A stretch of DNA of 24,822 bases, taken from positions 1-24,822 of IMG/VR virus record IMGVR_UViG_3300042337_000279; one strand, 5' to 3'. The translations under genes were made by a program, and so were the position numbers. The stretch is from a virus. Under the pieces are notes generated by a model. The model made no database searches. It was given only the letters and a program-made list of their open reading frames with translations, and was not told the origin of the DNA. Shown in pieces: positions 844-24,718 of the stretch. Position 1 is the stretch's first letter, and every line of letters begins with the position of its first letter.

Positions 844-985
844 GCTTTTTCTTTCCCTTCAGCTCGATCTCGAGCTTGGCGCACTCGTCGCTGAGTCGCT
901 TCAGCTCAGCCTGCAGCATCTCGATCTGGATCGATTGCTTTCCGATTTTGGCCCACAGAGCCTCTTCGGTCACTTCGAAGGTCAT
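836..985 (-). CDS. Small coiled-coil protein of unknown function
   Basis: This short gene encodes 49 residues starting MTFEVTEEALWAKIG and ending in a basic tail, KGKKKRG. The middle (residues about 16-42) has leucine/isoleucine at heptad-like spacing among Glu and Lys, so it probably forms a short coiled coil. I chose the ATG at 985 over longer in-frame starts because it overlaps the TGA of the glycosyltransferase gene as ATGA, the same coupling used by many neighbours. Its 3' end overlaps the DUF2634 gene by 8 bases. I do not recognise the family. Its place between adhesin genes and the baseplate wedge suggests a minor structural or chaperone-like role, which is inference only. Confidence 0.6.
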   Translation of the reverse strand: MTFEVTEEALWAKIGKQSIQIEMLQAELKRLSDECAKLEIELKGKKKRG

Positions 986-2076
986 GTATCTAGTGTAGCC
1001 GCGATTTTGGCGCTGGCCGGTCGTGGCCCGTAGCGCGAGTGCTCGAGTCCTGACCACTTTTCATACCAGCCCTTCCCCGTCAGGGTTTGGAGTTGCTCAA
1101 AGTAGGCGGTGTAGCGTGGCCGGATGGCGTTGTAGGAGTGGTTGGCGATGGCATGCGCTCGGATCTGGCCGCTGTCCAGCTCTGAGCAGCGCTCGACGGC
1201 GTCGCAGAACTCGCCGAAGGTCCGTGCACGGAATCCAGTTAGGCCGTGCACATTTGTCTCTGGGAAGGCACCGAAGTCTGTGGTCACCGTTGGGCACCCG
1301 TTCAGGTGAGCCTCCGGAACGATGTTGCCGAACGGTTCTGCGTAGGTGGTCGGAGCAAGCAGCGCGGTCGCCCCCGCCATCAGGTCGTTGCGCTCTTCCG
1401 GCAGGACTGGACCGATGTATTCGGCCATGTCGTAGTCGGGGCGGCAGTCGCCGCTACCGGCCAGCAAGATAGGCAGTCCCAGCTCCCGCGCTACATCGAC
1501 CGCGATCGCTACTCCCTTCCGGTCGATCAGTCGCCCGACGTATAGGAGGTATCCCATATCGTCCCTGTCGTCAGGGAACTCGCTCGGGTCGAAGTATCCG
1601 GGTATCACCGCGTCGTAGAAGGATGGGTTCACGTTCCCGATCCCCCCGTCCGCCTCTTTGCCGTAGGTCATGTTCATCCAAGCGTAGGATTCGAAAACTC
1701 GGTGCACCGAATGCATGCTTCCGGGGTATCCGATTCCCAGCTCGAATGCTGTCAGCTCGGGCAGCTCGCGGACCAGCTCGGCTTGACAGAGACCGCCGGG
1801 TAGCGCAAGCAGATCACCCGGCTCGGCCCGCTCCCTGATCTCGGCAGTCGCTAGTTTGTTGCTTTCAGCCCATCCTGCTTCGGTGAACTCTGGTGGTTCC
1901 TGCTCGTCGTAGCAGGCGACATAGTTCGGCAGGTCGTCGTGCCGGGGATCGCCGTAGACGATGACCTCGATGCCCTCCATCATCTCGGGAAAGCGCACCA
2001 CCTTGTTGGTGAAGGCGCAAGTCGAGTTAGCCTTAGTGACGGGCTGGCCGGGGAGGGCCGGTAGGTGGATTCTCAC
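982..2076 (-). CDS. GT4-type glycosyltransferase (glycosyl transferases group 1)
   Basis: The protein has about 364 residues if it starts at GTG 2076, which overlaps the TGA of the preceding gene as GTGA. The C-terminal half is a typical GT-B donor-binding domain: LLYVGRLIDRKG near 177-188, ILLAGSGD near 203-210, and the GT4 E-x7-E motif (E247 in AEPFGNIVPEA, with the second Glu at 255), followed by GAFPETNVHGLTG. Enzymes of this family move a sugar from a nucleotide donor to an acceptor; neither donor nor acceptor can be read from the sequence. No signal peptide or membrane segment is evident, so it should act in the cytoplasm. It lies between collagen-like/glycine-rich adhesin genes and baseplate genes, which suggests that it modifies virion tail proteins. 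Modification of host envelope sugars is the alternative. Confidence 0.85.
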   Translation of the reverse strand: MRIHLPALPGQPVTKANSTCAFTNKVVRFPEMMEGIEVIVYGDPRHDDLPNYVACYDEQEPPEFTEAGWAESNKLATAEIRERAEPGDLLALPGGLCQAELVRELPELTAFELGIGYPGSMHSVHRVFESYAWMNMTYGKEADGGIGNVNPSFYDAVIPGYFDPSEFPDDRDDMGYLLYVGRLIDRKGVAIAVDVARELGLPILLAGSGDCRPDYDMAEYIGPVLPEERNDLMAGATALLAPTTYAEPFGNIVPEAHLNGCPTVTTDFGAFPETNVHGLTGFRARTFGEFCDAVERCSELDSGQIRAHAIANHSYNAIRPRYTAYFEQLQTLTGKGWYEKWSGLEHSRYGPRPASAKIAATLDT

Positions 2077-2264
2077 TCGTCGGGTTCCTCGGGCGGTGCC
2101 GTGAAGGTCTCGGTCTCGGGGTCGTAGGTCCACCCGATCCACGCTCCGGACTCCCCACGCTCGACGAGGGCGAGGCCTTCGGGCGGGGTGTAGTCATCGG
2201 TCCCGTCGTAGACGATCGCGTTCACGATCAGGCCGTCGTCGGTTCTGTATTCGAGGAAGATCAT
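2073..2264 (-). CDS. Small hypothetical protein of the tail-fibre cluster (63 aa)
   Basis: The protein has 63 residues, is acidic, and starts [21 protein letters not shown]. The end carries a Trp/Tyr segment ([12 protein letters not shown]) followed by a Pro/Glu tail. I do not recognise a named family. Short proteins with a W-x-Y-D...F-x-x-P ending are often found beside phage fibre genes, where some help fibre folding or attachment, but that is only a contextual hint. ATG 2264 overlaps the TGA of the glycine-rich adhesin gene by 4 bases, and its own TGA overlaps the GTG of the glycosyltransferase by 4 bases, so the three genes look translationally coupled. Confidence 0.65.
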
Positions 2265-3652
2265 CCGTAGACCCAGACCTTTACCTCGGCCCTGCCTCCG
2301 TCGCCGCCCTTACCGGCGGTTGTTCCTGACGATCCGGCGCTTGCTCCTCCGCCTCCGCCTGCTCCGCCGGGGACCCCTCCGTTACCGCCTGCTCCGGCCG
2401 AATAGGTCGAGGCTCCCCCTCCTCCCCCTCCTCCTCCTTGCGAGGCCGATCCGTTGCCACCCGCTCCCCCGGTAGTGCCGGTCCCGGCCGTTCCTGCCGA
2501 CCCGCCTCCCCCGGTAGCGACGGCCGCAGTCCGGGCCGCTGTGAAGATGTTCGTCGGGTCGGTCTCGTAAGAACCTCCCGCCCCTCCTACGAAGGCGGTA
2601 GTCGGAGTCGCGGCGACTCCTCCCCCTGCTCCTCCGCCTCCGGCTCCCTTGTAACCCTTAGATCCGGCCGCCCCTGCCCCGGCGAGGGCGGCGGTTCCGC
2701 CGCCTCCGGTAGCCGGGTTTATCTGCTGCGAGATCCCGACTCCGCCGAGGGCCGATCCCGTAGATGCCCCGCCGTTGAACCCTCCGCCTCCGCCGATGTA
2801 GTAGAGAGGCCCGAACCGAGAAAGACCGCCCCGGACGCCGTGGAAGCCGGTCCCGGACGGGTTCGCCCCGGTAGGGCCGACCCCCCCTGCCCCGACGGTA
2901 ACGGTTACCGATCCGGTGACCTCGTCGCCGGTCAGGACATCGCGGTAGATTCCGCCGCCCGCTCCGCCTCCTCCTCCGAAAGAGTTAGAAGCCCCGGAAC
3001 CTGATCCTCCGGACCCTCCGGCCGCTACGGTCTCGACGACGATTACCTTCGCCCCTGCGGGGATCGAGTAGGTCGTGGACGATGTAAAGGTCTCGGAGTC
3101 GAGGAGGGACATCGCTCCTGCCGGACCGGAGGGACCACTTGGGCCACTCGCGCCCGCCGGACCACTTGCGCCCGTTGCTCCTGCGGCTCCCGAGGGTCCG
3201 GTCGCGCCTGTGGCTCCGGTCGCGCCCTCTGGCCCGCTCGGACCCGATGGGCCGGACGGACCCGTCGCGCCAGCCGGACCACTTGGCCCGGTTGCCCCCG
3301 TCTCCCCAATGATGCTTGCGCCGCTATCTACCCAAGTGAAACCGGCTCCCGGATCGGTCCAAGTCCAGATCGAGCCGTCGCTCAGGTCTATGTAGAGGTC
3401 ATCGGGGTCCGGGGAGATCGTGAGGCCACCCGGTGGAGTGCCGTTGTCAGCGTAGAGGTAGGTGTCACCAGCAGGTCCGGTGGCACCCGCCGAGCCAGCC
3501 GCTCCGCTTGGGCCGGTTGCTCCTGTCAAGCCGGTGGGACCGCTTGGGCCGGACGGACCGGAGGGGCCACTCGGTCCACTCGGTCCCCCCGTAATGTCGC
3601 CCTGAGTGGCTAGGTTAGCGGGATCAGTTTTCGGGCCGACATACTTCGCCAT
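2261..3652 (-). CDS. Collagen-like and glycine-rich tail adhesin
   Basis: The protein has 463 residues and a modular layout. Residues 1-22 are a short head. Residues 23-62 and 116-180 are Gly-X-Y tracts, rich in GPSG and GATG. Between them, residues 64-110 form a small Trp/Asp-rich segment. Residues 181-212 begin a beta-type segment ([16 protein letters not shown]), and residues 213 to about 452 are extremely glycine-rich with GGGG runs. The end is AEVKVWVYG. Collagen-like tracts in phages are expected to trimerise into rods. Glycine-rich C-terminal domains are known in phage receptor-binding tips, where they pack as polyglycine helices. Together these suggest a trimeric side fibre or tip adhesin. 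The order in the operon fits: fibre gene upstream, small protein and glycosyltransferase downstream. No receptor can be inferred. Confidence 0.8.
3113..3307 (-). repeat. Gly-X-Y collagen-like tract 2 of the glycine-rich adhesin
   Basis: These bases code for residues 116-180 of the adhesin, about 21 consecutive Gly-X-Y triplets, mostly GPS, GAT and GPA. At the DNA level it is an imperfect 9-base-type repeat, so it is prone to length change by slippage or recombination with the other two collagen-like tracts in this window. Confidence 0.85.
3467..3586 (-). repeat. Gly-X-Y collagen-like tract 1 of the glycine-rich adhesin
   Basis: These bases code for residues 23-62 of the adhesin: a run of GPS triplets followed by mixed GAT/GPA triplets. 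It ends before the Trp-rich segment. The DNA resembles that of tract 2 and of the tract in the tail-collar gene. Confidence 0.85.
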
Positions 3653-5211: not shown

Positions 5212-6219
5212 CTAGGTCTTGATGATGTGGTTCAGCACCATGTAGGGCTGGACATTGTTATGCGCTCCGCTACCGCCGGTCGCAGCCGAGGTAGCGTCAT
5301 CGTTGCCTGTGGTGCCAGCGGAAAGAGCCGTCAACCTGTTTTGACTGCCAGTCGCGGTCGTAGTGGCGGATTGGTTGGCGCTGATGGCGTGAGTGTGGGA
5401 CGGGATTTCACTTTCCGTCAGCGTGTGCGTTTTGGCACCGCCAGTTTCGCCGAGGGTGTCGAAGTCGGTATCCCCAGAGTCCCTAGTGATGGTCACCCGC
5501 CCGCGTAGGTCGGGCAGCCCAAAGGTTGAGAAGCCGTCCCCGTTGCCATAGGTCGTTCCGATAACGGCAAACAGGGCTGCGTATGTCGTCCGGCTTGCAG
5601 TCGTGCCATTGAGAAGCAGCCAGCCACTCGGGGCCGTTGCCGTTGGCCACGCAACGATTGAGCCAGTTGGAGCAACGGGGCCGCTAGGACCGCTAGGACC
5701 GCTTGGCCCGCTCGGTCCTGTAGGCCCGGTTCCAGAAGGCCCCGAGGGTCCGCTCGGTCCCGACGGTCCGCTCGGTCCGCTCGGTCCCGACGGTCCAGAA
5801 GGGCCGGTAGCGCCGCTTGGCCCCGAAGGGCCGGTGGCCCCGGCTACTCCGGTCGCGCCGCTTGGACCCGAAGGGCCGCTCGGTCCGCTTGGGCCGGTTG
5901 CGCCAGTCGGACCGGTAGCTCCGGCACCCGCGCTTGGGGCGGAGTTGCTTACCACGTCGGTGACTAGCCACTTGCCGCTTCGCATTTGCTTGATCGCCAG
6001 AGTGTCGCCCGCCAAGATCCCGACGGTGTCATCGTAGGTTCGGACCCACTGTGTCAGCGTCAGGTCTTCCTCGTCTAGGCTAAGCCTGCTGTCTTGCATC
6101 TCGAGGCTTAGCGGAGCTATCCGGCGAACGTCGGCGTATTCGATCTCGCGGACGCCGCGCTCAGCGGTTTCCCTGTCCTGCTCGCGGATTGCTCGAGCTA
6201 CCCGCTTTACCGCGCTCAT
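5212..6219 (-). CDS. DUF2577-like / collagen-like / tail-collar fusion protein
   Basis: With the start at ATG 6219 (ATGA overlap with the upstream stop) the protein has 335 residues. Residues 1-92 resemble the DUF2577 (XkdR-like) baseplate domain: [21 protein letters not shown], then [23 protein letters not shown]. Residues about 98-181 are a Gly-X-Y tract dominated by GPS triplets. Residues about 185-245 are a phage tail collar domain ([20 protein letters not shown], then [10 protein letters not shown]), and the end, [14 protein letters not shown], is typical for collar-domain fibres. The collar domain is established as a fibre-tip element. The DUF2577-like reading of the N-terminus is my inference. 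If right, the protein anchors a collagen-like rod directly in the baseplate and displays a collar tip. A longer start further upstream would overlap the neighbour by 76 bases and is unlikely. Confidence 0.8.
5677..5928 (-). repeat. Gly-X-Y collagen-like tract of the tail-collar protein
   Basis: This codes for residues about 98-181, about 28 Gly-X-Y triplets with one small interruption (SGTGPTG). GPS triplets dominate. On the opposite strand the same DNA reads as Pro-Leu-Gly repeats, an artefact of the repeat and not a gene. Confidence 0.85.
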
Positions 6220-7064
6220 TCGACGTCTCCGGGCACGACCTCTGTCGTTACGAGCAGGGTATCGGCTGCGAGTGGCGATAGCGCCTGCCACGCCCGCCTG
6301 CTCAGACTGATCTGGGTGTCGTCATCTAGGTCAAGGTCGGTTTCGCGGTGGATGTAGACGGTGGTCGAGCGGTTGCGGCCTGCCGTGATCCTGACCCGTT
6401 CTCCCACTAGGTCTGACAGCTCCCCGCCACGCTGGACGATTGCCACACTTGCACCTTGTGGCAGCGGGTCGATGAAGGTTCCGTGCCACGTCGCGTAGAC
6501 CCGGCGACGTGTTCTTGCATCGGGCGGGTCGCCGAGTGTTCTCTGGGCGGTCGGGTAGGCCAGCGTTGCCAAGTAGAGGTCGTCTTCGCTCGGCGGGGTC
6601 CAAGGGTAGGCGTAGGTTGCGTAGGCGATTAGCTCTCCGGTGGCGGCGCTCCCCGGCGAGACGGTCCCCGGAGTCGACAGGCTGGCGGTGTAGAGGTTGG
6701 TCGGGCCTGTGTTCTGGTAGAGCTGTGCCCCGTCGCTTGTCGGTCCCGCGATGACCCCGAGCAGCGCGTCGGCACTCGCTTCGACCGCAATAGGCGTAGC
6801 AAACTTGAGGTCAACCCAAGCCGGGGCTGCGAGGTTCTGGATGGTGATCGTCTCGGTGTAGCCCAGCAGGTTTCCGGCGTCGTCGTGGATCGTCCCCACC
6901 AGAGTCTGCTCGGCGTTGCCGCTGCCCTGTCCATTCACCACAATGGAAAGCTTTGACACGAGCACATCCCGGTTTGGCGCTGTGAAGCTCGAGGCTACCC
7001 ATGTCCCGTCGGCCTGCTCGAGGATGTCGTCCGGGTCTGCGGTGCTGTGTCCGAAGATCATCAT
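6216..7064 (-). CDS. Putative baseplate-associated minor tail protein
   Basis: The protein has 282 residues starting [17 protein letters not shown]. The N-terminal part (about 20-160) is predicted-looking beta sandwich: alternating hydrophobic residues, Asn/Gly turns, and phrases such as [25 protein letters not shown]. The C-terminal part (about 185-282) has [21 protein letters not shown] and later [36 protein letters not shown]. That ending loosely recalls double-psi beta barrel proteins, where an L-S-x-x-A-x-x-x-L helix follows the conserved strand, but I cannot confirm the fold. The gene sits between the hub and the collar-tipped fibre and overlaps both by 4 bases (ATGA), so it is probably a baseplate or fibre-anchor protein. 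I do not recognise a named family. Confidence 0.6.
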
Positions 7065-14988: not shown

Positions 14989-16473
14989 CTAGCTGACCGA
15001 TACCGTGAAGTAGACCTGCTCCAGAGAGCGGGCGAAGGAGACGGCGAGCACCAGTGCGATGAACTCGTCGTCGTCGCTCGGCGGCGGGTTCTGGTCGATG
15101 CCGACCGTCCAGCCTCCCTGAATCGAGCCGGTCCGCTCACGCTCGAGCAGGGTTGTCTTGACCTGCCCGACGACCGTTTCGCGGGTGTTTTCGTTGATTA
15201 CCTGAGTGCCGATGATGTTCTCCTCGGCCCACTGAGTCAGGTCCGACTCGATGCCATGAATCGTCCGAACGTACTTGGGCTGCCTGTAGATCAGGTAGGG
15301 CAGCGACGGGGTCGAGTCCGCGTCAGTCTGAGTCCATGTGGTCAGGCCGGTCTTGATGTGCACCGGGGCGGTCGAGTGGCTGTCCCTTGCCAGCGCGATG
15401 ACGCCGGAGTCGAAGGCAGTCTCGAGATCGCTCAGGGTTGCGCCGACGGTCAGCTCGATTCCCGCGAAGCGAGCGTGGGTCAGCGACTGGGACTCCCCGC
15501 GAGCCGCCAGAGCACCGGCGACCCTTGCGCAGAACTGGGCCGTGCCGAGGGTCAGCTCGGTCTGACCGGACCCCAGCGTGCTGTCGGTGATCGTGCCGAT
15601 TCCTACGTTCAGGATGTTCGGGCTAGCCAGTCCGCCGGACCTCGTGGCCGCAGTGGAGGCACTCTCTGCTGCGGCTCCACCGAACACGGTGAAGAACCGC
15701 CTGCCGAGATCGTTCTGATCGTCGGTCCAAGTGGCGACTGTCGTCCGGATGCCGGAGTCGGTCAGGCCGTAGGCGCAGAGCACGGCGAACCTGTGGACTT
15801 CGAACGCGTCCAGCGCGTCGGCCCACTCGGTGCTGGTGGTCGAGGTGCCGTCGTTACCCCCGGTGAAGGAGGAGCCGGAAACCTCGGCCAGCGCGGTTCC
15901 GGTTGTGACGGAGCCTGCCGTGATCCAGTTTGACGAGGCGTTGATCTGGGCAGCCAGATCGGTGATGTTGGTGTTGGCGTAGCGATACCGCTCGAGGACC
16001 GTCGTGCCGTCGAGCACGATCAGCTCGTTCTTGTCCGAGTCGGCTGCGTAGTCCTGAGTGGTGACCCGCAGGTCGTTGCCCCGCGTGCCCTCGTAGCGTG
16101 CCGTCAGGGTGATGGCCGCAGCAGGGGTGCTCGCCGTGTTGTTGAGAGTCTTGGCTGCCTTGGCTGCAGCAGATGCACCGAAGCGGTAGCAGACAACCTC
16201 ACCAGCGCCTCCGCGACCCTCGAGTCCCTCGCCCTGAAATGCCTGCTTGACGGCGCGGTAGCCGTCGGTGTCGTCAGAGGCACCGAAGATGCTCTGGAAC
16301 TCGGCGAAGCTGCTGACGCGGGTGACGGTTTCGAACGGACCCCAGTCGTGGGTGAAGGGAATGGCGACAGCGGTTCCCGATGCGACGGGGACGGCCTCGA
16401 CGACCTGATTCTCGAAGTTGAAGTACGCTCCCGGCAGGCTCGGCCTGTTGGACTTGGAGAAGATGCCTCCCAT
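14989..16473 (-). CDS. Contractile tail sheath protein
   Basis: The protein has 494 residues, normal for phage sheaths. The N-terminus (RPSLPGAYFNFENQVVEAVPVASGTAVAIPFTHDWGPFETVTRVSSFAEFQSIFG) is the conserved sheath entry segment. Further marks are the central AVLCAYGLTDSG...RTTVATWTDDQND, and the C-terminal RYIHGIE-like segment (YVRTIHGIESDLTQWAEENIIGTQVINENTRETV) before TLLERERTGSIQGGWTVGID. Established role: the outer, contracting cylinder of a myovirus tail. This gene, with tube, hub and wedge, fixes the morphology as contractile. The ribosome binding site GGAAGGG lies at the end of the preceding gene. Sheath, tube and chaperone genes follow in standard order. Confidence 0.95.
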   Translation of the reverse strand: MGGIFSKSNRPSLPGAYFNFENQVVEAVPVASGTAVAIPFTHDWGPFETVTRVSSFAEFQSIFGASDDTDGYRAVKQAFQGEGLEGRGGAGEVVCYRFGASAAAKAAKTLNNTASTPAAAITLTARYEGTRGNDLRVTTQDYAADSDKNELIVLDGTTVLERYRYANTNITDLAAQINASSNWITAGSVTTGTALAEVSGSSFTGGNDGTSTTSTEWADALDAFEVHRFAVLCAYGLTDSGIRTTVATWTDDQNDLGRRFFTVFGGAAAESASTAATRSGGLASPNILNVGIGTITDSTLGSGQTELTLGTAQFCARVAGALAARGESQSLTHARFAGIELTVGATLSDLETAFDSGVIALARDSHSTAPVHIKTGLTTWTQTDADSTPSLPYLIYRQPKYVRTIHGIESDLTQWAEENIIGTQVINENTRETVVGQVKTTLLERERTGSIQGGWTVGIDQNPPPSDDDEFIALVLAVSFARSLEQVYFTVSVS

Positions 16474-21878: not shown

Positions 21879-22328
21879 TCACGCAGCTTGACTTTGCTCG
21901 ATCACCATCTGTAGCGCGTCCCCGATCGGGCTTTCGAGCTGCTCGGCCTGCTCCCACTCTCCCACCTGTGGGCGCTTCCCACTGCGGTCGATGCCCGCCA
22001 TCCACAGCTCCGAGACTCCCTTGGCGTAGACCTGCACGATCACCACTTCGTTTCGCTGATGAGGCTCTTCGTCGGGTGCTCGCATCCAGCCGGTCTGGAC
22101 TTTGCAGACAATCGTTGGCCGGATCTCCGTCAGGGCAGGTGGGACCAGCTTCAGCATCTCGAGCTGGTCGAGCACCCGTCCGTCCTCGGTCACCAAGGGC
22201 ATAGCGTTGAACCCGCGCTCGGTTTCCATGAGCAGGCAGGGCGTCCAGTCGTCGTCGCCCTTCAGCGTCTTGCCGATGTCCTCGACCCCGCGCAGGATGC
22301 TGTCGCGGAAGGCTTCCGGGCTAACCAT
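21879..22328 (-). CDS. Hypothetical protein between DNA ligase and head genes (149 aa)
   Basis: The protein has 149 residues. The N-terminus MVSPEAFRDSILRGVEDIGKTL is helical. The middle (DDDWTPCLLMETERGFNAMPLVTEDGR) and later VVIVQVYAKGVSELWMAGIDRSGKRPQVGEWEQAEQ look like alternating strands, and the end is a helix (SPIGDALQMVIEQSQAA). I do not recognise the family, and no catalytic motif stands out. Its ATG overlaps the stop region of the ligase gene by 8 bases, so it is probably co-translated with the ligase, while the next gene downstream is separated by 67 bases. The coupling therefore suggests that it belongs with the ligase/Ku group and not with the head genes. Confidence 0.65.
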   Translation of the reverse strand: MVSPEAFRDSILRGVEDIGKTLKGDDDWTPCLLMETERGFNAMPLVTEDGRVLDQLEMLKLVPPALTEIRPTIVCKVQTGWMRAPDEEPHQRNEVVIVQVYAKGVSELWMAGIDRSGKRPQVGEWEQAEQLESPIGDALQMVIEQSQAA

Positions 22329-23259
22329 CGATCCGGCACTCCCCGGCAGGCTTGTCGTCTCGGCGCTTGGCGAATTGCGGGTGCCTGTATCCGCCGGTCG
22401 GCATCTGGCCCATGTGCTTGATCTCGATGACCGCCCCGAGCCACGCTTCGGCGTTGTCGGTCATGTGCTTGCGGGTTGTCATGTTCATCCCGCTGCACCG
22501 CCCGACCTCGACCAGCTTGCCGTTCGCGTCGTGCTGGCCGAAGATGACCGCGCCGACCATTCCGGCGAAGCCGTTCTCTCCGGGCTTGAAGCCCATGACC
22601 ACCGCGTCGAGGTTGTCTTGCGGCTTGACCTTGACCCAGCCTGCCCCGCGCTTGCCAGAGGCGTATCGGGCGGCGGTGTCCTTGATCACCATGCCCTCGA
22701 AGCCCTGTGCGAGCAGAGCCTGCAGGCTGTTATCGGTGACTTCGACCTGTGGCACCAGCTGGAGCCGGTTCATCGATGCCTTCTCGAAGACCCGCTCGAG
22801 CAGATCCCGCCGCTTGGCGTAGGGCAGGCTCCGGGCGTCGATTCCGCCGTGCGCGATCAGGTCGAAGGCCATGTAGGTGATCTTGTCAGATTGGGCAGCC
22901 GCCTTTTCGGTCGAGCTTCCGAGGACGCTCTGGACCGTTCCCCATTCGTGGGTGACCGTCCCGTCCTTGACCGTCATGGCGACCGCTTCGCCATCGAGCC
23001 ATGTCCCGGCTGGCAGGTGCTCGCCCACCTCGGCTTCGATCATCGGCAGGGAGCCGTCGTGCGACTTGCCGGTGCGGGTGTAGAGGTGGACGCCGTCGTC
23101 GGCGACGTGGATCAGGAGCCGCCAGCCGTCGAGCTTCGGCTCGGCGATGTATCGCTCGGTGTCGTAGCTGCTCGGCGTCATACCCTTCTTGGGGGCTTCG
23201 GCGTTCTGGGCCAGCTTGTCTGGGCTGGTGGGTGCGGCGGTGCTTGTGAGTGTTGGCAT
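22321..23259 (-). CDS. ATP-dependent DNA ligase (LigD/LigC-like minimal ligase)
   Basis: The protein has 312 residues, the size of a minimal ligase with nucleotidyltransferase and OB domains. Motif I is AEPKLDGWR with K42 as the expected AMP-accepting lysine; TRTGK follows at 61-65; an acidic LDGEAV at 88-93; motif III-like FDLI at 132; motif IV EGMVIK at 188-193; motif V WVKVKP at 208-213; and a motif VI-like RHPQFAKRRDDK near 292-303. The enzyme seals nicks or ends in DNA using ATP. It is divergent from Ku with a 141-base shared control region, which strongly suggests joint action in end joining. No polymerase or nuclease domain of full LigD is attached. ATG 23259 has an AAGGAGA site 4 bases upstream. 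Confidence 0.92.
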   Translation of the reverse strand: MPTLTSTAAPTSPDKLAQNAEAPKKGMTPSSYDTERYIAEPKLDGWRLLIHVADDGVHLYTRTGKSHDGSLPMIEAEVGEHLPAGTWLDGEAVAMTVKDGTVTHEWGTVQSVLGSSTEKAAAQSDKITYMAFDLIAHGGIDARSLPYAKRRDLLERVFEKASMNRLQLVPQVEVTDNSLQALLAQGFEGMVIKDTAARYASGKRGAGWVKVKPQDNLDAVVMGFKPGENGFAGMVGAVIFGQHDANGKLVEVGRCSGMNMTTRKHMTDNAEAWLGAVIEIKHMGQMPTGGYRHPQFAKRRDDKPAGECRIDG

Positions 23260-23264
23260 GTGTT

Positions 23265-23276
23265 CTCCTTGGTCGG
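23265..23276 (-). repeat. Leader element CCGACCAAGGAG before the ligase gene
   Basis: On the minus strand the 12-base sequence CCGACCAAGGAG covers the ribosome binding site and the six bases upstream of it. It is identical to the leader of Ku on the plus strand, so as DNA the two form a 12-base inverted repeat 105 bases apart. Confidence 0.8.
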
Positions 23277-23292
23277 TTGTGGTGCGCTACGG

Positions 23293-23301
23293 ATTGTAGC
23301 A
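23293..23301 (-). promoter_or_regulatory. Probable extended -10 promoter for the ligase gene
   Basis: The minus strand reads TGCTACAAT: a TG-N extension followed by TACAAT, one base from the -10 consensus. Transcription starting about 7 bases downstream would give a leader of about 26 bases. The -35 region is weak (TTCCAT at 17 bases). Confidence 0.5.
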
Positions 23302-23357
23302 CAGGGTCAGTGGTAATGGAAGTATTTCGTTGGATGCCAACATTTCTCTGGGATCTA

Positions 23358-23366
23358 TGCTATTCT
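23358..23366 (+). promoter_or_regulatory. Possible extended -10 promoter for Ku
   Basis: The plus strand reads TGCTATTCT, again TG-N followed by a -10-like hexamer (TATTCT). The expected leader is about 28 bases. No good -35 is seen. The arrangement mirrors the ligase side. Confidence 0.4.
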
Positions 23367-23381
23367 GCTTGCACATTGAAT

Positions 23382-23395
23382 CCGACCAAGGAGGT
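23382..23395 (+). promoter_or_regulatory. Ku leader element with a near-perfect ribosome binding site
   Basis: CCGACCAAGGAGGT precedes the ATG at 23401 by 5 bases. AAGGAGGT is close to the ideal complement of the 16S rRNA end. The first 12 bases are identical to the ligase leader, and CCGGCCAAAGGAGG precedes the SSB gene, so the element extends beyond what ribosome binding needs. Confidence 0.75.
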
Positions 23396-23400
23396 ATCGC

Positions 23401-24231
23401 ATGAGAGGCATCCATTCCAACCTGATTGTCACGCAGACCACTGACGACGCCACCGGCGAGGCCAAGCCGCTTTTCGCCTTCCCCGTCCAGATCTGCAAGG
23501 CAGTCGACAACAAGGAGGTCCGCTTCGACCGGGCCGCTCCCTCCGGTGCTCAGGTCCAGCAGGTCTACCGTGACTCGGTGACCGGCGAGATCCTTGAGAC
23601 CGGCGACCTGATCCGGGGCATCCGGACGGGTGACTCGTTCCAGCAGATCGCGGACGAGCAGATCAAGGCCATCGACGAGCAGCTGTCGTCGAAGGAGATC
23701 GTCGTGGACCGCACGGTCGAGCTGGACGAGGTTCCGTTCGAGCGGGTGACCGCCTGCTACTTCCTGCAGGTTCCCGCCAAGAACGGTTCGGCCAAGCACT
23801 ACCGCCTGCTCTACGAGGCTCTGCAGGGTCGCACCAAGAAGGAAGGGCCGCGTGCCCTGCAGGTCAGCTTCGTGTCGCGGACGCGGCAGAAGCTCGGCGT
23901 GATCTACGCCGATCCGAAGACGCAGTGCCTCGTGCTGGTCACCCTGACCTACGCGCAGGCTCTCCGCCAGCCCGACGAGCAGGTGCTGTCGCATCTCTCC
24001 GCCGAGGTGACCAAGGAGATGGTCGGGAAGGCCCGGTCGGTCGTCGACGCTCTGGCCGAAGGCGATCGCGGGGACTTCGATACCCCGGTCGACGAGACCA
24101 TCGCTCGCCGTCAGGAGCTGGTCGAGGCCGCTCTCGCAGGCGAGGGCATCGAGGCTCCGGTGGCAGCGGCCCCGGTCGATGCCAACGCCGAGGTGGAGTC
24201 GATGCTCGAGGCCAGTCTCGCCGCCGTCTGA
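23401..24231 (+). CDS. ku: Phage Ku-like DNA end-binding protein
   Basis: The protein has 276 residues and is the only plus-strand gene here. It follows the bacterial/mycobacteriophage Ku core: MRGIHSNLIV at the start, a segment with RDSVTGEILETGDLIRGIRTGDSF (57-80), KEIVVDRTVELDEVPFERVTACYFLQVP (98-125), KHYRLLYEAL (132-141), VSFVSRTRQKLGVIYADPKTQCLVLVTLTYA (155-185) and a helical end around TKEM...DFDTPVDETIARRQELVEAA. After residue 246 the tail is Ala/Pro/Val-rich. Ku homodimers are known to thread onto double-strand ends and recruit a ligase. Mycobacteriophages with Ku but using host LigD are known. Here a ligase is encoded next door. The ribosome binding site is very strong and the gene ends at a shared terminator. 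Confidence 0.88.
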   Translation: MRGIHSNLIVTQTTDDATGEAKPLFAFPVQICKAVDNKEVRFDRAAPSGAQVQQVYRDSVTGEILETGDLIRGIRTGDSFQQIADEQIKAIDEQLSSKEIVVDRTVELDEVPFERVTACYFLQVPAKNGSAKHYRLLYEALQGRTKKEGPRALQVSFVSRTRQKLGVIYADPKTQCLVLVTLTYAQALRQPDEQVLSHLSAEVTKEMVGKARSVVDALAEGDRGDFDTPVDETIARRQELVEAALAGEGIEAPVAAAPVDANAEVESMLEASLAAV

Positions 24232-24245
24232 GCAACGGCTGACCT

Positions 24246-24284
24246 AACGACAGAGGCCCGGAGGTTATCCGGGCCTTTGTCGTT
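24246..24284. terminator. Bidirectional terminator between Ku and SSB
   Basis: Two 16-base arms, AACGACAGAGGCCCGG and CCGGGCCTTTGTCGTT, pair with a single mismatch around a 7-base loop (AGGTTAT). The structure sits in the 67-base gap between two converging genes, 14 bases after the Ku stop and 14 bases before the SSB stop, so it can end both transcripts. The run of T after the stem is short. Confidence 0.8.
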
Positions 24285-24298
24285 CTTGGTCGTGAGCC

Positions 24299-24718
24299 TT
24301 AGAAGGGTATGTCGTCGCTGGCCGGAGCGCCCGTGCTGGCGAAGTCTCCGACGCCGGTCCCGCTCGAGGCAGCAGCCGGGGCGTTTCCGCCCTCTTCCCG
24401 TCCGCCGATGAAGGCGACGTTGTCGGCGTGGATCTCGACGGCCTGCCGCTTGCCGTTGTCGCTTTCCCACTCGCGCCACCTGAGCTTGCCGGTGATGGCG
24501 ACCTTGCGACCCTTGCTCAGATACTGGGCGACGTTCTCGCCCTGTGCACCCCAGACGACCACGTCGAAGAAGTTGGGAGCGTCGACCCACTGGTCGCCGT
24601 CCTTCTTCCGTCCGTTATTGGCGACCCTGATCCGACAGATGGATCCGCCGGGGGTCTGCTTCAGCTCGGGGTCACGGGTCAGGTTGCCTGTGAGAGCTAC
24701 GGTGTTGATGTCCTGCAT
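24299..24718 (-). CDS. ssb: Single-stranded DNA-binding protein (SSB)
   Basis: The protein has 139 residues. The OB-fold pattern is clear: INTVALTGNLTRDPELKQTPGGSICRIRVANNGR (residues about 4-37), then FFDVVVWGAQGENVAQYLSKGRKVAITGKLRWREWE (about 50-85) and AVEIHADNVAFIGG. A Gly/Ala-rich linker leads to the acidic tip SDDIPF, the standard SSB tail that binds partner proteins. It coats single-stranded DNA in replication and recombination. The ATG at 24718 is preceded by AAAGGAGG at 10 bases, within a longer leader similar to those of Ku and ligase. A partial SSB-like neighbour is not seen. Identification is safe. Confidence 0.95.
   Translation of the reverse strand: MQDINTVALTGNLTRDPELKQTPGGSICRIRVANNGRKKDGDQWVDAPNFFDVVVWGAQGENVAQYLSKGRKVAITGKLRWREWESDNGKRQAVEIHADNVAFIGGREEGGNAPAAASSGTGVGDFASTGAPASDDIPF

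Follow-up and report, generated by a model that had tools for sequence, protein, structure and literature searches.

A conserved Ku-ligase gene pair in an uncultured phage family, a candidate end-joining module

Can a phage supply both the protein that binds DNA ends and the ligase that joins them? Characterised phage Ku proteins reportedly depend on host LigD. A phage with both parts would have one of the smallest natural NHEJ systems. The question is raised by a 24.8-kb IMG/VR fragment (the window, i.e. the whole stretch of DNA analysed), in which the original prediction placed a Ku gene back to back with a ligase gene, both supplied by the phage.

The two genes and the region between them

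The window derives from a contractile-tailed phage, with sheath and capsid genes. Its tail sheath protein at 14989-16473 (PHROG 279, E 6e-75) bears out the contractile tail that had been predicted. No cultured phage has a match to this protein at E 1e-10, which places the phage family far from isolates. Among the tail genes of the window is a glycosyltransferase (982-2142, minus strand; PHROG 3408, E 4e-51), and two putative virion proteins (2261-3652 and 5212-6291, minus strand) have collagen-like GPSGPSG repeats.

The Ku gene (23401..24231, plus strand) is a complete ORF for a 276-aa end-binding protein of the homodimer type. The identity originally proposed for it is confirmed by profile search: the protein matches PF02735 with 57.2 bits (cut-off 25, E 2.6e-15) from profile positions 3 to 188 of 190, spanning the Ku beta-barrel domain, and also matches PHROG 4873 ('Ku-like DNA end binding'). 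A PDB sequence search likewise led to bacterial Ku. Against TIGR02772, the equivalog for bacterial NHEJ Ku, it scores 82.9 bits, under the curated cut-off of 150 bits, so we regard it as a diverged homologue and do not assign it to the bacterial equivalog. Judged by these matches, the gene is a diverged yet clear Ku. A structure model predicted from seven relatives (pLDDT 63.7) has M. tuberculosis and B. subtilis Ku as its best fold matches in the PDB (E 6e-12 to 2e-9, TM about 0.43), and human Ku ranks after bacterial Ku; the predicted fold assignment is of modest confidence. The window Ku has no basic extended tail, and its sequence ends immediately behind LEAS, the minimal C-terminal motif. 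At most five residues follow this motif (LQES in G006) in six of the seven phage lineages described below; a longer basic tail is present in the remaining lineage, G007, and in both mycophage Ku proteins compared.

The ligase gene (22321..23259, minus strand), also a complete ORF, encodes a minimal ATP-dependent DNA ligase of 312 aa, consisting of a nucleotidyltransferase domain and an OB fold. It matches PF01068 (102.8 bits, E 2.7e-29) and PHROG 114, and a PDB sequence search gave ATP-dependent ligases, among them the ligase domain of M. tuberculosis LigD. Its structure model (pLDDT 84.1) likewise has ATP-dependent ligases as fold matches, and the LigD ligase domain is one of them. The predicted motif I (EPKLDGWR, with K42) and later motifs are all present, namely III, IIIa, IV, V and VI, the last being the C-terminal R300-x-D302-K303 (RxDK). 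An alignment of seven sequences has K42, D44, G45, E91, F132-D133, E188-G189, K210, K212 and R300-x-D302-K303 as invariant residues. The best NCBIfam model by E-value is the NHEJ ligase TIGR02779, whose equivalog cut-off of 227.75 bits lies above the score of 132.1 bits. A pattern-based scan found no cellular ligase homologue above 32% identity, so a recent capture of the gene from a sequenced host is unsupported.

A comparison with the nearest other species, a relative at 75-79% identity, gave dN/dS values of 0.23 (Ku) and 0.21 (ligase). By these ratios both genes are under purifying selection, which suggests that they are used in the phage life cycle.

The end of the ligase gene is overlapped by the gene of a 149-aa protein (21879..22328, minus strand), whose function is unassigned and which has homologues in the related contigs G003, G013 and G016. 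The other neighbour of Ku, here as in G003 and G013, is a single-stranded DNA-binding protein (SSB; 24299..24718, minus strand). The Ku and SSB genes are convergent, with a terminator-like stem-loop between them (24259..24279, plus strand); there are three such sites across the scanned region, with 2.1 expected by chance.

As predicted, the Ku and ligase genes are divergent, with 141 bases between their start codons (23260..23400). This region holds the start signals of both genes. The extended Shine-Dalgarno sequence CCGACCAAGGAG occurs at 23265..23276 (minus strand) for the ligase gene and at 23382..23393 (plus strand) for the Ku gene, and these are the only two exact copies of the 12-mer in the window. 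We considered it as a private operator of the pair, and rejected this idea because the motif is phage-wide, being common in G013 and G016 before many other genes. Upstream of the Shine-Dalgarno sequence sits a TGCTA-type element. One copy, TGCTACAATCCGTAGC (23286..23301, minus strand), is a candidate promoter or operator dyad of the ligase gene, and a weaker copy before Ku, TGCTATTCTGCTTGCA (23358..23373, plus strand), is a putative counterpart. The element of G016 is TGCTAACTTT[GC]TTGGC, which has 6 copies in 134.7 kb, two of them preceding Ku and ligase. The Ku and ligase promoter elements of a phage resemble each other to a degree that 3 of 120 permutations reached or surpassed, which is only suggestive of joint control. 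A promoter scan gave no sigma-70 sites near the pair.

Pairing in related phages

Relatives in which the two genes never occur together had been named as evidence against the original prediction, and the survey came out on the side of the prediction. Profile and pattern searches for the Ku clade yielded seven sequence lineages (the window species, G003, G004, G006, G007, G013 and G016), and Ku adjoins a matching ligase in all seven, with ligases down to 44% identity. The intact pair is retained in two near-identical contigs of the window species. The genes are divergent in six lineages and co-directional in G007, where they overlap by 4 bases (ATGA). Given that gene order varies in this way between lineages, the link between Ku and ligase survives rearrangement. 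An eighth contig, G005 (8 kb), is uninformative about Ku, as it begins about 450 bases upstream of its ligase match. Ku is absent from the viral contigs with more distant ligases, those that match at no more than 35% over the best segment.

The phage Ku proteins form a single phage-only clade (SH-aLRT 100), which the tree separates from every Ku of bacteria or mycobacteriophages. The ligases also form a single phage-only clade (SH-aLRT 95), which lies outside the bacterial NHEJ ligase clades, and the branching order inside the phage clades is nearly identical in the two trees. Deep placement is unsure, since the trees were built from quick searches with Actinomycetota as the only bacterial references. 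LigD polymerase (TIGR02778) and phosphoesterase (TIGR02777) have no match in the seven phage contigs, of which most are incomplete and one, G016, is apparently a complete circle of 134.6 kb; this agrees with the predicted lack of LigD polymerase and nuclease domains. A conserved phage Ku-ligase module is thereby established at the level of comparative sequence evidence. The original prediction is supported in part, namely for a conserved pair of phage genes that have start signals in common and stay together in every lineage found.

The setting of the pair is also conserved. G003 (80.9 kb, 75-79% protein identity) has the same order of capsid, 149-aa protein, ligase, Ku and SSB genes. It also encodes a GpA-type terminase, RecT, a PD-(D/E)XK nuclease, RusA and DNA methyltransferases, several of which are common to G013 and G016. 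The gene maps of these three contigs are circular permutations of each other. G016, with 134,735 bases and 26 predicted tRNA genes, is listed as linear, and its ends overlap by exactly 127 bases, so it is probably complete, with a circular map of about 134.6 kb. Reading physical genome ends from contig breaks was rejected, given that G013 apparently lacks about 6 kb and G016 closes.

Other genes in these contigs are noted here in their own right. A homing-endonuclease-like ORF (PHROG 5046, HNH endonuclease; L040 9461-9937, plus strand) separates ligase from Ku in G016, and a gene of the RNA-repair polymerase-beta family, RlaP (PF10127; L056 13467-14261, plus strand), is close to Ku. G003 has giant ORFs of 3786 aa (L028 7306-18666), 1781 aa (L029 4707-10052) and 2659 aa (L029 10543-18522), all on the minus strand, with 24, 4 and 10 copies, respectively, of a (G)M[AQEK]SP motif. 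The copies in the 3786-aa ORF are often about 100 residues apart, and the motifs may mark sites of processing. No copy occurs in a 2598-aa ORF that lies to the right of Ku in L002, from the window species. The 2659-aa protein also has a weak PI3/PI4-kinase-like match, under the curated cut-off.

Possible functions of the pair

Ku and ligase probably constitute a phage-encoded two-protein end-joining module, as far as can be judged from their sequences. Ku would dimerise into a ring and thread onto the double-stranded ends of phage DNA, protecting the ends and holding two of them together. The stand-alone ligase would be stimulated by the Ku core with its minimal C-terminus and would use ATP to join blunt or compatible ends, in place of the host LigD on which Ku mycobacteriophages reportedly draw. 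It is an evenly balanced matter whether the pair might amount to self-sufficient viral NHEJ, in which Ku and a dedicated, Ku-stimulated ligase work without host LigD and without a LigD polymerase or phosphoesterase domain. In M. tuberculosis, the isolated ligase domain of LigD seals nicks best when Ku without its extended tail is present, and is not stimulated by full-length Ku (PMC9638933). The Ku core of B. subtilis also supports its cognate ligase domain (PMC13201618). By analogy, the short-tailed phage Ku fits a protein that evolved for a ligase-only partner.

As to the purpose of the module, we prefer repair of broken phage DNA and rank circularisation of incoming DNA second. Circularisation of the injected linear genome, as reported for Omega and Corndog but with the phage's own ligase, is the module explanation with another purpose, and we consider it possible, if rather doubtful. 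Its precedent is cluster J, whose genomes have 4-base 3′ overhangs (PMC3706429) and in whose circularisation Ku is implicated (PMC3706429, and Pitcher 2006 as cited there). The permuted maps of G003, G013 and G016 and the overlap by which G016 closes are in line with it. However, circular assembly is equally compatible with terminal redundancy. Moreover, because one relative's map closes and RecT, the PD-(D/E)XK nuclease and RusA are present, recombination could circularise the genome as well. The best cultured-phage matches of the terminase by E-value, among the matches listed, are in SPO1-like phages, and are weak (about 25% identity). SPO1-like phages have long terminal repeats.

An explanation that we regard as unlikely is that Ku chiefly shields phage ends from host nucleases and that the adjoining ligase is an ordinary enzyme of replication or repair. 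Ligases without Ku are common in phages (144 cultured records match), the tree places the ligase outside the NHEJ clades, and an SSB gene adjoins. Yet the pairing is strict in seven lineages despite changing gene order, with one overlapping pair, and in G016 a promoter element is common to Ku and ligase. DNA polymerase A, the only polymerase family looked for, was not found in four large contigs, which also argues against an ordinary replication role. Recruitment of host LigD by the phage Ku, with the phage ligase as an auxiliary, is quite improbable. In mycobacteriophages, Ku reportedly works with the LigD of M. smegmatis (PMC7719229), but the Ku clade described here stands apart in the tree from such proteins and the phage always supplies a ligase. 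Most members also lack the extended C-terminus that takes part in LigD binding in M. tuberculosis (PMC9638933). Least probable is that the main effect of error-prone joining is to rearrange the genome and bring in genes, not to help each infection succeed; phages with recent gene transfers include a disproportionate share of Ku phages (PMC8136500), but any influence on mosaicism would be incidental.

Under the preferred reading, a joining module used first for repair, this uncultured phage family may need no host ligase to mend breaks or join the ends of linear DNA. The pair would then be a candidate answer to DNA-cutting defences; models of defence systems (PADLOC) gave no match. If real, the module would also offer a simple test of what Ku requires from a ligase.

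Comparison with known systems

The pairing of Ku with a ligase thus extends beyond cells, to phages only distantly related to cultured ones. Bacterial NHEJ by Ku and LigD resembles it in that Ku goes together with an ATP-dependent ligase of the kind found as the ligase domain of LigD, but the phage pair differs in the absence of polymerase and phosphoesterase domains (seven contigs) and in its separate clades. The split NHEJ operons of Actinomycetota and the kuA/ligC/polK sets of Streptomyces (PMC5124664) also have a stand-alone ligase of about 320-370 aa adjoining Ku. However, the bacterial sets examined carry a LigD-polymerase gene beside the pair, and the phage pair has none.

Phage Ku proteins are listed in PMC11936186, PMC3706429 and PMC8136500. 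Ku matches among 50,697 cultured-phage records were to mycobacteriophages and one unannotated fecal fragment. Three Ku proteins from the phage family (window, G004 and G007) had no match in INPHARED. The Ku queries did not match Streptomyces phage BillNye, which PMC11936186 lists as carrying Ku; the neighbourhood survey left out BillNye and the uncultured-phage Ku A0A6J5RUZ1. In our partial coverage of the literature, we met no account of a phage Ku that is accompanied by a neighbouring ligase of the phage.

Among minimal ATP-dependent phage ligases, SPO1 gp32.95 is likewise small and stand-alone (about 30% identity), but other viral contigs with such distant ligases have no Ku. The Ku proteins of Omega (cluster J) and Corndog (cluster O) are, like the new ones, phage-encoded and single-domain, with a conserved minimal C-terminal LEAS motif. 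They differ in having basic or Lsr2-like C-terminal tails, in their 21-26% identity to Ku of the phage family and in grouping with bacterial Ku in the tree. The whole genomes of two Ku mycobacteriophages, Ryadel and Courthouse (the two tested), have no ATP-dependent ligase. Gam of phage Mu belongs to a different family from Ku. According to work cited in PMC8136500, this Ku-like protein promotes NHEJ with plain E. coli ligase, so that the likeness lies in a phage end-binding protein and joining by a plain ligase. Phage Mu borrows that ligase from its host, whereas the phage family described here encodes its own.
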